Below, piece after piece: positions 27,815 to 43,684 of a stretch of 64,000 bases of DNA. The notes under the pieces are model-generated. The model did not search any database. It had not been told where the DNA came from and saw only the letters and a list, made by a program, of their open reading frames with translations. Made by a program: the position numbers and the translations under genes. Source of the DNA: Blattabacterium sp. (Cryptocercus kyebangensis) (GTDB lineage Bacteria > Bacteroidota > Bacteroidia > Flavobacteriales > Blattabacteriaceae); assembly GCF_003226855.1 (NCBI RefSeq), contig NZ_CP029820.1:483501-547500 (forward strand), in the 5' to 3' direction. Position 1 is the stretch's first letter; every line of letters starts with the position of its first letter.

Positions 27815-28240
27815 TTAATAAATAAGTTTATCTATTATAATTTTGGATTTTTTCAAAAAATTTAATCCATCATTTTTTTCGGAACATTTATGTAAATATA
27901 CAACTCTTTTAATTTTAGATTGATGAATCAATTTACTACATTCTTTGCATGGAGAATGTGTAATATATAAATACGAATCTTTACAAGATTTCGAAGAAAA
28001 AGCCATTTTTAATATGGCATTTGCTTCTGCATGTAGAACATACCATTTAGTATTTCCATATTGATCTTCACATATATTATCAAACCCACTTGGAGTTCCG
28101 TTATATCCATCGGATATAATCCGATTATTTTTAACTATAATAGCTCCTACCTTTTTATTTTTGCAATAAGATAATTTAGACCATTTTATGGCTTTATTCA
28201 TATAAATGATATCCTTTTTTTTATAAATTTCACAATTCAT
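27815..28240 (-). CDS. dCMP deaminase-like (ComEB family) zinc deaminase
   Basis: A 141-residue cytidine/deoxycytidylate deaminase family protein. It has VGAIIVKNNRIISDGYNGTP near residues 31-50, typical of dCMP deaminases. The zinc motif LHAEANAILK is followed by THSPCKECSKLI with the two metal Cys. It would convert dCMP to dUMP, the ThyA substrate, which suits the nearby thyA. It is divergent from the TrmH-like gene, with 13 bases between starts. The name could equally be comEB; a competence function is not implied. Confidence 0.88.
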   Translation of the reverse strand: MNCEIYKKKDIIYMNKAIKWSKLSYCKNKKVGAIIVKNNRIISDGYNGTPSGFDNICEDQYGNTKWYVLHAEANAILKMAFSSKSCKDSYLYITHSPCKECSKLIHQSKIKRVVYLHKCSEKNDGLNFLKKSKIIIDKLIY

Positions 28241-28253
28241 TATAATATATTTT

Positions 28254-29051
28254 ATGGAAAAAATATATGGATCACGTAATATAAAAATTAAAAATTTAAT
28301 AAAAATTTATAAAAAAAAAAAGGACAATAAAATGTTTATTGTTGAAGGAGTAAAAGAATTTGAAATGGCTATAATAGGAAATTATAGACCAATAGGAATA
28401 TTTGTATGTAAAAATATATTTCATCAATATAATATGATTAAATCGTTTAATAACATTGTTTTTTTTATTAATATAAAAGCTTTTCAAAAATTAGCATGTA
28501 GAAAAAATTCAGGTGGAATCATTGCCTTGTTTAAGGAAAAAAAATTTTCTAGTCTAGAAACTATAAAAGTTCCTAAAAATCCTTTTATTCTTATATTGGA
28601 TGGAATAGAGAAACCTGGTAACTTGGGATCTATATTAAGGACAGCTGATGCAGCAGGAGTACATTTTATTATATTATGTAATACGAAAACATATATTTTT
28701 AATCCTAATGTAATTAGATGTAGTCTAGGATGCGTTTTTACAAAAAAAATTTTTATAGAAAAAATAAAATCAATTATTTATTGGTTACAAGAAAAAAACA
28801 TAGAAATTGCAGTAACAGGATTCCATAATAAAAAATCTGAAACATTATATAAAACTAAATTTTCTTCACATTTAGCTATTGTTTTAGGGTCCGAAAGTAA
28901 AGGAGTATCCAATATATGGTTAAATATATCCGATAAAATAATAACGATTCCCATGTTTGGATCTATAGATTCTATGAATGTAAGTAATGCGACATCTATA
29001 ATTATATATGAAATAATTAGACAAAGAAATACATGTAAGTTTTCTAAATAA
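28254..29051 (+). CDS. TrmH/SpoU-family RNA 2'-O-methyltransferase
   Basis: A 265-residue SPOUT enzyme. It has an N-terminal substrate-binding domain, then LILDGIEKPGNLGSILRTAD (motif 1 with conserved Asn and Arg), IVLGSESKGVSNIW (motif 2) and ITIPMFGSIDSMNVSNATSI (motif 3). These make up the knotted SAM site. It methylates ribose in rRNA or tRNA; the exact target (RlmB-like or another) cannot be read from the sequence. Its last 8 bases overlap the end of rnhA on the opposite strand. Confidence 0.9.
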   Translation: MEKIYGSRNIKIKNLIKIYKKKKDNKMFIVEGVKEFEMAIIGNYRPIGIFVCKNIFHQYNMIKSFNNIVFFINIKAFQKLACRKNSGGIIALFKEKKFSSLETIKVPKNPFILILDGIEKPGNLGSILRTADAAGVHFIILCNTKTYIFNPNVIRCSLGCVFTKKIFIEKIKSIIYWLQEKNIEIAVTGFHNKKSETLYKTKFSSHLAIVLGSESKGVSNIWLNISDKIITIPMFGSIDSMNVSNATSIIIYEIIRQRNTCKFSK

Positions 29052-29525
29052 TTTTTTTTAAATTTTGTTTTTCATATACATGATCTATTTTCAAATTTTT
29101 ACTTTTTGAAGCTTCTACAGATAATCGATCGCAATAATCATTAATATAATGAAGATGATGTCCTTTAACCCATTGAAAAATAATGAAATGTTTATGAAAT
29201 AAATTTAAAAATCGTATCCATAAATCCACATTTTTTTTTTTTTAAAGTTGTTTTTTTCCCATTTAAAAATCCAATTTTTTTGAATAGAATTTATTATATA
29301 TTTAGAATCAGTAAAAACAATAATATTTTGTTTTTTTTTCGTGATTTTTTCTAGACCAACTATTATGGCTAATAGTTCCATTCTATTATTAGTTGTATAA
29401 CGAAATCCTTCGGAAATAACTTTCCAATAAGAAGTCCCGGCTATTTCTATAAAAATAGCATATCCTCCTGGACCAGGATTTCCTTTAGAAGATCCGTCAG
29501 TGTAAATATGAATTTTTTTATTCAC
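29044..29525 (-). CDS. rnhA: Ribonuclease HI, split by a frameshift in a 13-base poly(A) tract
   Basis: Degrades the RNA strand of RNA-DNA hybrids. The first 106-codon frame has YTDGSSKGNPGPGGYA, NNRMELLAI and VFTDSKY with three of the four carboxylates. It then runs out of frame at a run of 13 A on the coding strand (plus 29231-29243). With 14 or 11 A the frame joins DLWIRFLNLFHK, QWVKGHHLHYIN and DYCDRLSVEASKS, supplying the catalytic His and the fourth Asp, and stops at 29044. Everything else is intact, so transcriptional slippage may restore it, or it may be a young pseudogene. The start overlaps the plsC stop by four bases. Confidence 0.85.
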
Positions 29526-30512: not shown

Positions 30513-31502
30513 ATGTATACATTGGGAGAATTTATTATAGAAAATAGAGATCGTTTTTCGTATTCTACAGAAGGACTATTGCGTTTATTTAGTTCTATAA
30601 AGCTAGCGGCTAAGGCTATTAATAAGGAAGTTAATAAAGCAGGGTTAACAGAAGAAATTATAGGAAGTTCTGGAATTACTAATATACAAGGAGAAAATCA
30701 ACAAAAATTGGATAATTTTGCACATAAAGTTTTCATAGAATCCTTTAAAAGTAGAAATATAGTTTGTGGAATAGCTTCAGAAGAGAGCAAAGATTTTATA
30801 GTTTTAAAGGGAGAAAAAGAAAATTCTTTTCAAAAAAAATATATTGTTTTAATAGATCCACTAGATGGTTCATCTAATATAGATGTAAATGTATCCATTG
30901 GGACTATATTTTCAGTATATAGGAGAAAATCTTCTATGAATTTAACAATGGAAGATTTTTTACAGAGAGGTAATCAACAAATTTTAGCAGGGTATATTAT
31001 TTATGGATCATCTACAATATTAGTATATACTACAGGTAATGGAGTCCATGGTTTTACTTTGGATCCTTCTGTTGGTACCTTTTATTTATCTCATCCGAAT
31101 CTTCGTTTTCCTAAAATAGAAAGAATTTACTCTATTAATGAAGGAAATTATGCTAGATTTCCTAATGAAATAAAAAAATTTATAAGATATTGTCAAGAAA
31201 AAGAAGGGAATCGTCCTTATACAGCACGTTATATTGGTTCTTTAGTAGGAGATTTTCATAGAAATATGATACAAGGTGGTATTTATATTTATCCTAAAAC
31301 AGCATATTCCCCAAAAGGAAAATTGAGATTACTTTATGAATGTAATCCTATGGCATTTTTAACGGAACAAGCTGGTGGAAAAGCTTCTGATGGGGAAAAA
31401 AGGATTCTAGATATAGAACCTTCAAATTTACATCAAAGAACGCCATTTATTTGTGGACCTGTAGGTATGGTTTCTAAATTAGAAGAATTTATAAATCCAT
31501 AA
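30513..31502 (+). CDS. fbp: Fructose-1,6-bisphosphatase class I
   Basis: Gluconeogenic phosphatase making fructose 6-phosphate. The 329-residue sequence has the metal site IASEESKDF, the [21 protein letters not shown] block that binds metal and phosphate, and the late [19 protein letters not shown]. Class I identity is clear. Retention fits a symbiont that builds hexose phosphates from amino-acid carbon. rnpA begins 7 bases after its stop, so the two probably share a transcript. Confidence 0.95.
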
Positions 31503-31509
31503 GTAAAAT

Positions 31510-31877
31510 ATGAAAGTTCAATTAAAAGGAAAAGGAGAAAAAAATATTATTAATACCATTAAATACGGAAAATCCTTATTTTTTTTTCCAATTTATACAT
31601 ACGTACTCTTACATTCAAATAAAAAATATCAGGAAGGAATAAAACTAATTGGGACTTTAGTAAAAAAAAAAATTTTAAAAAATCGGTTCATAGAAATAGA
31701 ATAAAACGTTTATTACGATCTGCTTTTTTATTGAACAAATTTATTTTAGAAGAAAAAAAAGAGAAATATAAAAGCTATCATATTGTTTTCCTTTATAAAG
31801 GAGTGATTTTACCAAAATTCGAAGAAATTAATCATTCTATGAAAAAAATATTTTATGATATAATCCAATGGGAATAA
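31510..31877 (+). CDS. rnpA: Ribonuclease P protein component, frameshifted in an 11-base poly(A) tract
   Basis: Protein cofactor of RNase P, needed for tRNA 5' maturation. The N-terminal frame gives QLKGKGEKNIINTIKYGKS, then IKLIGTLVKKK, and goes out of frame at a run of 11 A (31662-31672). Adding one A continues as NFKKSVHRNRIKRLLRSAF, the RNR signature of RnpA. It then runs open to the TAA at 31875-31877, giving about 122 residues, the family length. No other lesion exists. Since the RNA subunit is also present (43.4-43.7 kb), a functional protein made through slippage at the A tract is likely. This is an inference, and a sequencing error would look the same. Confidence 0.85.
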
Positions 31878-40404: not shown

Positions 40405-41958
40405 ATGTATGATATTACTGAATTAAAAAGTAAAAAACTTTTTGAATTACAGGAGATTGCTCGTTCTTCAGGATTAAAAAAATGTACACAATTACGAAAA
40501 AACGAACTCCTAGAAAAAATAATTTCCATTTTAAAGAAAAAAAAATCTCCTACAATGTCTTCTTCAAAGATAGAAAATTCTTTATTAAAAAAAGGATTTA
40601 AAATTCGAAAAAAAATAGAATCCAAGATACTATTTTCAGAAAATATTAATGAAAAAAAGAAATCCTTTTCTAAGGAACATTTAAAGATATCCCCCAAAAT
40701 TCCAGAAGAAACTGGTAAATATCAAAAAAAATACTTTCCAAGTTGGAAAAAAATTGATAGATCGGAATTTCAAACTACTATTGGGACAGAAAGTGGTGTT
40801 TTACAAAAAGTATCCAATAAATATCGTACTCCTGAATATGAATTTGAGGGAATTATAATTAGTGAAGGAGTACTAGATATTATGCAAGAGAACTATGGAT
40901 TTTTAAGATCTTCTGATTTTAATTATTTATCATCTCCTGATGATATTTACGTTTCTCAATCTCAAATTAGACTTTTTGGAATGAAAACAGGAGATACTAT
41001 AAGAGGAGAAGTTCGTCCTCCTAAAGAGGGAGAAAAATATTTTCCTTTAATTAAAATTCTTGAAATAAATGGAAGACATCCTTCTTTTGTAAGAGAAAGA
41101 GATTCTTTTGAACATTTAACTCCCCTTTTTCCAAATGAAAAATTTAAACTAGCTGAAAAAAACGCTACTCTTTCTACAAGAATAGTAGATCTTTTCACAC
41201 CAATAGGAAAAGGACAAAGAGGTATGATTGTAGCTCCCCCAAAAACAGGAAAAACTACTTTATTAAAAGAAATAGCTAATGCAATTGCGGCTAATCATCC
41301 AGAGGTTTATCTGATTATTTTACTTATTGATGAAAGACCAGAGGAAGTTACAGATATGCAACGAAATGTTAAAGGAGAAGTAATCGCCTCTACTTTTGAT
41401 GAACCAGCAGATAGACATGTAAAAGTAGCTAATATTGTATTACAAAAAGCTAAAAGAATGGTAGAATGTTCTCATGATGTTGTGATATTATTAGATTCTA
41501 TAACACGTTTAGCACGTGCATATAACACTGTTTCTCCTGCCTCTGGAAAAGTTTTGTCAGGAGGAGTAGATGCCAATGCTTTGCATAGACCAAAAAGGTT
41601 TTTTGGAGCGGCTAGAAATATAGAAGATGGAGGATCTTTATCTATTATTGCTACTGCTATGATTGATACAGGATCAAAAATGGATGAAGTTATTTTTGAA
41701 GAATTTAAAGGAACTGGAAATAAAGAACTTCAATTAGATAGAAAAATTTCTAATAAACGAATTTATCCAGCTATTGATCTTGTTTCATCCAGTACAAGGA
41801 AAGATGATCTATTGTTAGATACAAATACTTTGCAAAGAATGTGGATTTTACGAAAACATCTTTCCGATATGAATCCAGTAGAAGCCATGGAATTTTTAAG
41901 ATCACGTATGTCTAGAACTAAAAACAATGAAGAATTTTTAATATCAATGAATGGATGA
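40405..41958 (+). CDS. rho: Transcription termination factor Rho
   Basis: Hexameric RNA helicase that ends transcription. The 517 residues start with the Rho N-terminal helical domain ([20 protein letters not shown]). A Lys/Ser-rich insertion of roughly 90 residues follows, typical of Bacteroidetes. Then come the RNA-binding cold-shock-like domain ([20 protein letters not shown]) and the ATPase domain with Walker [16 protein letters not shown], Walker [18 protein letters not shown] and the R and Q loops. It is a single plus-strand gene and the next element is tRNA-fMet. Confidence 0.96.
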
Positions 41959-42015
41959 TAATAATTTTTTATGGGTATTTGATTTTGTGATTGAAAAACA
42001 TTATATTATGAAAAT

Positions 42016-42088
<73 letters not shown>

Positions 42089-42125
42089 TTTTTTTTAGCT
42101 TCATAAAATTCTTAATATACTTTTT

Positions 42126-43301
42126 TTGTTTATGATATTCTATTATTATTTTGGAATTTTATGCTGTTTTATTTTTTTTATATTCATCTATTTTTTTAGA
42201 AAGTTGGAATTCTTTTTGATGGAAAAGTTAAAAGATCATCGAAATGAAATCCAAAAAATGTCTCAATATGATATAATTGAATTTGGAAATTCTTTAAAAG
42301 AAATTAAGAATGGAATTATACAATCTATAATAGATTTTCAAAATTCTATTGATGGTAAAATTCAATTTTATATTGAAAGTCAATCTAATAAATTAAATTT
42401 TATTCATTTAGAACAAGAAAAACTGGTTAGAATGACAGAGAAAAAATTAGAAGAAATCAAAGAAAATGTGAATGAAAAACTTCAAAATTCTTTGAATGTA
42501 CATTTGGGTAAATCTTTTGAAATAATTGGGAATCAATTGTCTTTTTTACAGGAAGGGTTGGGAGATATGAAAAATTTAGCACAGGATGTAAATGTTTTGA
42601 AAAGAACTTTAAATCATGTGAAAATATGTGGAAGTTTTAGTGAAATGCAATTATCTATGCTTTTACAACAGATTCTATCCCCAGAACAGTATGCCTGTAA
42701 CGTAGTTACTAAATCTAATACAAATTTTGTAGTGGAATTTGCTATTAAGCTTCCAGGACTTGGAGATGGAAATATTATATGGTTACCGATTGATGTAAAA
42801 TTTCCAAAAGAAACTTATGAAAAAGTACAAATGGCTTATAATTTAGGAGAAAAAAAAAATATAGAAATAGCTAAAAAAAATATGGTATCTGTTCTTAAAA
42901 AAATGTCTAAGGATATTAAGGATAAATATATAGATCCTCCAAATACTACTGATTTTGCCATTCTTTTTTTGCCTTTTGAAGGAATATATGCTGAAATAGT
43001 GAAAAATTCAAGCTTATTAGAAGAATTACAAAGAAAATATAAAATTGTAATTACAGGGCCTTCTACATTAGCGGCTATGTTAAATAGTTTACAGATCGGA
43101 TTTCGTACTTTAGCTATTCAGAAAAAAAGTTCTGAAGTATGGAAAATTTTAGAAACTGTAAAAAAAGAATTTACAAAATTTGGATCATTGCTTCATCAAG
43201 CACAAGATAAATTGCAATCAGCAGCCAAAGATATAGATAAAGTAATGGGAGTTAGGAAAAATTTAATTGAAAAAAAATTAAGAGATATAGAGAATTATTA
43301 G
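42126..43301 (+). CDS. rmuC: DNA recombination protein RmuC family
   Basis: A 391-residue protein with an N-terminal membrane helix (YYYFGILCCFIFFIFIYFF). A long coiled-coil region follows to about residue 150, then the RmuC nuclease-like core: VCGSFSEMQL-type KICGSFSEMQLSMLLQQIL, LPIDVKFPKETYE, FAILFLPFEGIYAEIV and VITGPSTLAAMLNSLQIGFR. RmuC limits inversions at short repeats in E. coli. The start at 42126 could also be two codons later. Its stop abuts the tRNA-Ser gene on the other strand. Confidence 0.92.
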   Translation: MFMIFYYYFGILCCFIFFIFIYFFRKLEFFLMEKLKDHRNEIQKMSQYDIIEFGNSLKEIKNGIIQSIIDFQNSIDGKIQFYIESQSNKLNFIHLEQEKLVRMTEKKLEEIKENVNEKLQNSLNVHLGKSFEIIGNQLSFLQEGLGDMKNLAQDVNVLKRTLNHVKICGSFSEMQLSMLLQQILSPEQYACNVVTKSNTNFVVEFAIKLPGLGDGNIIWLPIDVKFPKETYEKVQMAYNLGEKKNIEIAKKNMVSVLKKMSKDIKDKYIDPPNTTDFAILFLPFEGIYAEIVKNSSLLEELQRKYKIVITGPSTLAAMLNSLQIGFRTLAIQKKSSEVWKILETVKKEFTKFGSLLHQAQDKLQSAAKDIDKVMGVRKNLIEKKLRDIENY

Positions 43302-43387: not shown

Positions 43388-43396
43388 TATTCAATA

Positions 43397-43684
43397 AAAG
43401 TAAGACTATAAGCCGGATTCTGTTTTTATACCTATCATTTATCTAGGATACTGGTTACCCACTATCTCTATCTGCCTACCCCCCGGTATCAACCGAGTCA
43501 GTTTTCCGGTATATATGGCATTTCACCGTACAGAGTTTACATGATTTCACTACAGCAATATTATCTGTACTTTCTTTCTGTTGCACTATTCCTCACCTTA
43601 CGGTGGATGGGGATTATCCATTGTACTGCTCTATGGTGCCCGGACTTTCCTCATTTTTTTTAATGCGATAGGACGTCTTACTTT
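43397..43684 (-). ncRNA. rnpB: RNase P RNA (class A)
   Basis: The universal ends are present. Near the 5' end is GAGGAAAGTCCGGGC followed by ACCATAGAGCA. In the middle is the ACAGAAA motif of conserved region IV, then AGATAAATGAT (region V), and near the 3' end ACAGAATCCGGCTTATAG. The outermost 10 bases, AAAGTAAGAC and GTCTTACTTT, pair perfectly as helix P1 and set the limits. About 288 bases makes it compact. The 5' end touches the yebC stop codon and the 3' end is 9 bases from tRNA-Ser. Its protein partner rnpA is at 31.5 kb. Exact ends are inferred from P1. Confidence 0.93.

Follow-up and report, generated by a model that had tools for sequence, protein, structure and literature searches.

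In 38 of 49 genomes of the cockroach symbiont Blattabacterium, the two halves of the RNase P protein gene rnpA lie in different reading frames, joined at one and the same A tract, and comparison of the genomes suggests that the gene is probably functional, being decoded across the tract by RNA polymerase slippage, with a DNA frame that is nearly neutral. With so many genomes out of frame at this site, the frameshift is a genus-wide feature and not an isolated accident or a matter of chance. The window, a stretch of 64,000 nucleotides, covers positions 483501–547500 of a 637-kb Blattabacterium genome. The first-pass annotation had described rnpA in the window as out of frame solely at the run of 11 A, and this was borne out: both parts are open (Table 1), and no second lesion was seen in the gene. 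The 5′ frame translates as MKVQLKG...IKLIGTLVKKK, and the frame containing NFKKSVHRNRIKRLLRS is open from within the A tract up to its stop codon. The read-through RnpA, with X at the junction, matched PF00825 over positions 18–106 of 109 (E 4e-11) with 43.4 bits, above the family cut-off of 22.3, and fell below the stricter TIGR00188 cut-off (31.9 vs 38.35); the N-terminal ORF alone gave no family match in the profile search. The contrast that had been drawn with nearby thrB also holds. The lesions of thrB and thrC (41593–42937; 41.6–43 kb) lie away from any long A tract; thus, the damage to these 2 genes in this genome is ordinary decay. Both genes are intact in most of the relatives that have them.

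Table 1. Features of the window discussed in the text.
Feature	Position	Strand	Remarks
dCMP-deaminase-like gene (PF00383; ComEB weakly)	27815–28240	-	Intact in the window; tract 28151–28162 interrupted
rnhA (RNase HI)	29044–29525	-	Frame broken in this genome at 13-A tract 29231–29243, one base short
fbp (fructose-1,6-bisphosphatase)	30513–31502	+	7 bases upstream of rnpA; syntenic in 49/49 genomes; gene used for the tree
rnpA	31510–31877	+	Frame broken solely at 11-A run 31662–31672
rnpA 5′ part	31510–31704	+	Frame from ATG 31510, 64 aa; crosses the tract, stop shortly 3′ of it
Slippage tract, 11 A (putative)	31662–31672	+	12 or 9 A would be in frame; based on the 49-genome comparison
rnpA 3′ part, NFKKSVHRNRIKRLL...IIQWE	31673–31877	+	Other frame; stop TAA 31875–31877
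RNRIKR	31692–31709	+	Conserved RNR motif of RnpA, in the 3′ part of rnpA
rnpB, RNase P RNA (RF00010)	43393–43684	-	Found in 49/49 genomes

In all 49 Blattabacterium genomes, rnpA lies behind fbp and encodes the motif RN[RK]I[KR]R. Measured by the spacing from GTLV to RNRIKR, the 2 halves are in frame in 11 genomes, offset by +1 in 18, and offset by +2 in 20. The A run has 10 A in 30 genomes, 11 in 9, 9 in 3, 12 in 2, and 13 in 2, and it is interrupted in 3; its length is 9–13 A in every out-of-frame genome (38/38). In each of these 38 genomes, rnpA is damaged solely by an indel within an A/T homopolymer that is about 9 or more bases long, as expected of genes rescued by slippage. A single clean open frame is present in only 9 of the 49 genomes because 2 of the 11 genomes that are nominally in frame at the tract carry another lesion: (i) in rnpA of strain Bge (G043), the A run that comes after A10 is one base short (A5, not A6), the nominal frame is kept, and a TAA lies at codon 53 that a single slip is unable to bypass; and (ii) rnpA of G042 is in frame at A12 and shifted at a T8 tract approximately 100 bases downstream. 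Outside the genus, rnpA is open in about 100 Flavobacteriales genomes, and in the only genome of the sister genus it is intact and has no A tract.

All 3 interrupted rnpA tracts, in which the longest run is 6 A, are in frame. A dCMP-deaminase-like gene located 3.5 kb from rnpA has a pure A tract that breaks its frame in 31 genomes other than that of the window, comprising 29 with 11 A (one base short) and 2 with 10 A, and it is in frame in 9 genomes with 12 A. The 6 interrupted deaminase tracts that were scored, that of the window included, are all in frame, as is a seventh in G044, which is beyond the 6 scored. When both genes are pooled, interrupted tracts account for 0 of 69 out-of-frame and 9 of 26 in-frame tracts (Fisher p 3e-6; 0.009 for rnpA alone and 0.0005 for the deaminase gene alone), and these p-values ignore phylogeny and serve as a guide only, since the species are not independent. 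That only long unbroken A runs are ever out of frame points to RNA polymerase slippage. The first-pass annotation had proposed examining sister strains for an A run at this site and for its frame; the outcome favours slippage, since the frame is broken at this tract in 38/49 genomes, the 2 halves are conserved, and every interrupted tract is in frame. The deaminase gene itself may be dispensable because no copy was found in the stretch from G017 and the copy of G046 carries another lesion. In the latter genome, a stop replaces the cysteine before the tract, and the gene contains a partial repeat of its own 5′ end.

The DNA-encoded frame of rnpA appears to be close to neutral, and both halves are conserved. 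On the fbp tree, the frame, scored as 3 states, changes at least 24 times, no less often than with shuffled labels (mean 22.4). Sister pairs differ in their tracts, with G001 (A11, out of frame) paired with G042 (A12, in frame) and G034 (A10) paired with G022 (A11). Of the 46 genomes with a pure tract, 8 are in frame, which is below one third; therefore, the frame departs from perfect randomness, or tract length is under a mutational bias. In the out-of-frame genomes, the N-terminal part reaches the start codon, and the C-terminal part extends at least 57 codons past RNR. A simple simulation of neutral decay along terminal branches, run at the rate of fbp, a constrained gene, and with the moment of the frameshift drawn at random, predicts about 31 stops spread over about 17 genomes. 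The 2 rnpA halves instead reach their conserved ends, and as the halves are delimited by stops, this decay test rests on their full length and not on an independent count of stops. The N/S ratios of the 2 halves were 0.75 and 0.56 in out-of-frame pairs and 0.91 and 0.64 in in-frame pairs, that is to say, the ratio is not relaxed in out-of-frame pairs; AT bias and saturation make these Nei–Gojobori ratios too high in absolute terms, and they serve solely for this comparison of classes. The frameshift thus persists without decay of the rest of rnpA, a second feature expected of slippage rescue.

We propose that slippage of RNA polymerase on the 9–13 A would produce a mixed mRNA pool with more or fewer A. 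The in-frame fraction of this pool would be translated into full-length RnpA with KK, KKK, or KKKK at the junction. The cell probably requires little RNase P protein, and the in-frame share could be sufficient at any length of the DNA tract, so that the encoded frame would drift almost freely while the flanking amino-acid sequence and the purity of the tract remain under selection. Because slippage in transcription on A runs both gains and loses bases, it would serve both offset classes. We infer that the slip occurs in transcription, that its yield is adequate, and that RnpA continues to be required. The need for RnpA is plausible because rnpB is kept in all 49 genomes and an HARP-type RNase P protein was not found in this genome. 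Given the second lesions in G043 and G042, certain lineages may be able to do without RnpA.

The published reading for Bge is that rnpA is a pseudogene or is being lost and that the RNA subunit works alone. Its rnpA was reported as the only pseudogene of that genome, stopped at codon 53, with the remark that the RNA is active by itself in vitro (Lopez-Sanchez et al. 2009, PMC2768785); the second lesions in Bge and G042 agree with this reading. The gene and the site are the same as those described here, with codon 53 located just 3′ of the A tract. Whereas the Bge authors invoked a point mutation, with the gene possibly being lost (PMC2768785), the genus comparison reveals poly(A) indels and kept halves, and Bge rnpA itself has an additional one-base loss. 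We consider the published reading unlikely: damage is almost invariably confined to the A tract, the 2 halves are open and alignable across the genus against the roughly 31 stops predicted under neutral decay, and interrupted tracts are never out of frame.

Selection might also keep a long slippery run in both rnpA and the deaminase gene as a built-in dimmer, which would limit the amount of protein whatever the DNA frame. The rnpA tract is pure in 46 of 49 genomes, compared with 62% all-AAA codons for KKK in other genes. This purity fits a dimmer and is also explained if out-of-frame lineages are unable to lose the tract, and we regard such a role as doubtful.

Ribosomal frameshifting on the A tract could also join the 2 frames in place of RNA polymerase slippage. 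The sequence A AAA AAA is an established -1 slippery heptamer and could serve the +2-offset class, this genome included. In the 18 genomes of the +1-offset class, however, the ribosome would have to shift by +1 or -2 on this tract. A -1 ribosomal shift serves the +2 class only, whereas slippage in transcription gives both. Programmed -1 frameshifting is recognised by one conserved phase together with a slippery heptamer; the rnpA tract is found in 2 out-of-frame phases, in 18 and 20 genomes. These observations make a ribosomal mechanism rather improbable.

Beside slippage, which the relatives support, the first-pass annotation had offered a homopolymer assembly error, with the true rnpA DNA in frame, and this second alternative did not withstand comparison with control genes. 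The tract is a long homopolymer with offsets of one or two bases, as such errors would produce. By contrast, 38 genomes share the single site, interrupted tracts are always in frame, and Bge was sequenced with Sanger and 454 methods, its authors likewise finding a broken rnpA. The controls were sampled from 2 stretches of approximately 60 kb: in 13 genomes, the 60–64 kb around rnpA contained 636 intact orthologues with 201 tracts of at least 10 A in frame; in 6 genomes, a second 60-kb stretch contained 332 intact orthologues with 76 such tracts in frame and no breaks at long A tracts. In total, 277 tracts of at least 10 A are in frame and about 4 are out. The breaks at long A tracts besides those of rnpA and the deaminase gene are in rnhA (this genome and G021), a mutY-like gene (G041), and a SpoU methylase gene (G029). 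Intactness was scored as open-frame coverage, and rnhA and the SpoU gene were scanned over all genomes; coverage and per-gene scans replaced a tblastn scan for two-frame genes, which was insensitive and missed rnhA and most deaminase cases. With about 277 in-frame and about 4 out-of-frame tracts in the same assemblies, neither general errors in assembly nor frame relaxation across genes at large can explain rnpA, and an error confined to rnpA is very unlikely. Other two-frame patterns of rnhA occur in G030 and possibly G028, and rnhA is in one frame in the other 45 genomes. Finally, that RnpA consists of 2 separate polypeptides that assemble would agree with the conservation of both halves, but it is barely credible because 37 of the 38 out-of-frame genomes lack any ATG, GTG, or TTG upstream of the RNR motif in the frame of that motif, and 9 genomes keep one open frame.

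If RNA polymerase slippage does decode rnpA, the frame of a normally essential gene would be nearly neutral across a genus in which interrupted tracts supply natural controls, the published pseudogene call for Bge would be corrected, and the amount of transcription error that a minimal cell tolerates would become a directly testable question. Annotation pipelines may drop RnpA from most Blattabacterium genomes. Our literature search, which covered papers outside subscription, found no paper linking Blattabacterium rnpA to slippage.

Slippage rescue is established in AT-rich symbionts; the mechanism is thus a known one, in a more extreme form here, with the RNA step predicted. Slippage-rescued poly(A) frameshifts in symbionts were reportedly also described by Wernegreen et al. 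in 2010. In the bacterial dnaX and Citrobacter tssM genes, slippage on A/T runs gives products from more than one frame, according to PMC5009743 and PMC4256274, as is proposed here; unlike these genes, rnpA shows no sign of 2 wanted products, and its phase is not conserved. PMC5009743 (citing Tamas et al. 2008) and PMC3017870 describe poly(A) frameshifts rescued by slippage in Buchnera and Blochmannia, the former giving 12–50% corrected transcripts and the latter noting that Blochmannia dnaX lacks the frameshift wherever its tract is interrupted. Blattabacterium resembles these AT-rich insect symbionts, in which tracts have about 9–12 A, the genes are otherwise intact, and the frameshifts have long been kept. 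The Buchnera and Blochmannia cases comprise a few genes in a few genomes with RNA evidence, whereas Blattabacterium rnpA is known from DNA alone, belongs to another phylum, and extends over 49 species, with one site in 3 phases and at least 24 frame changes.
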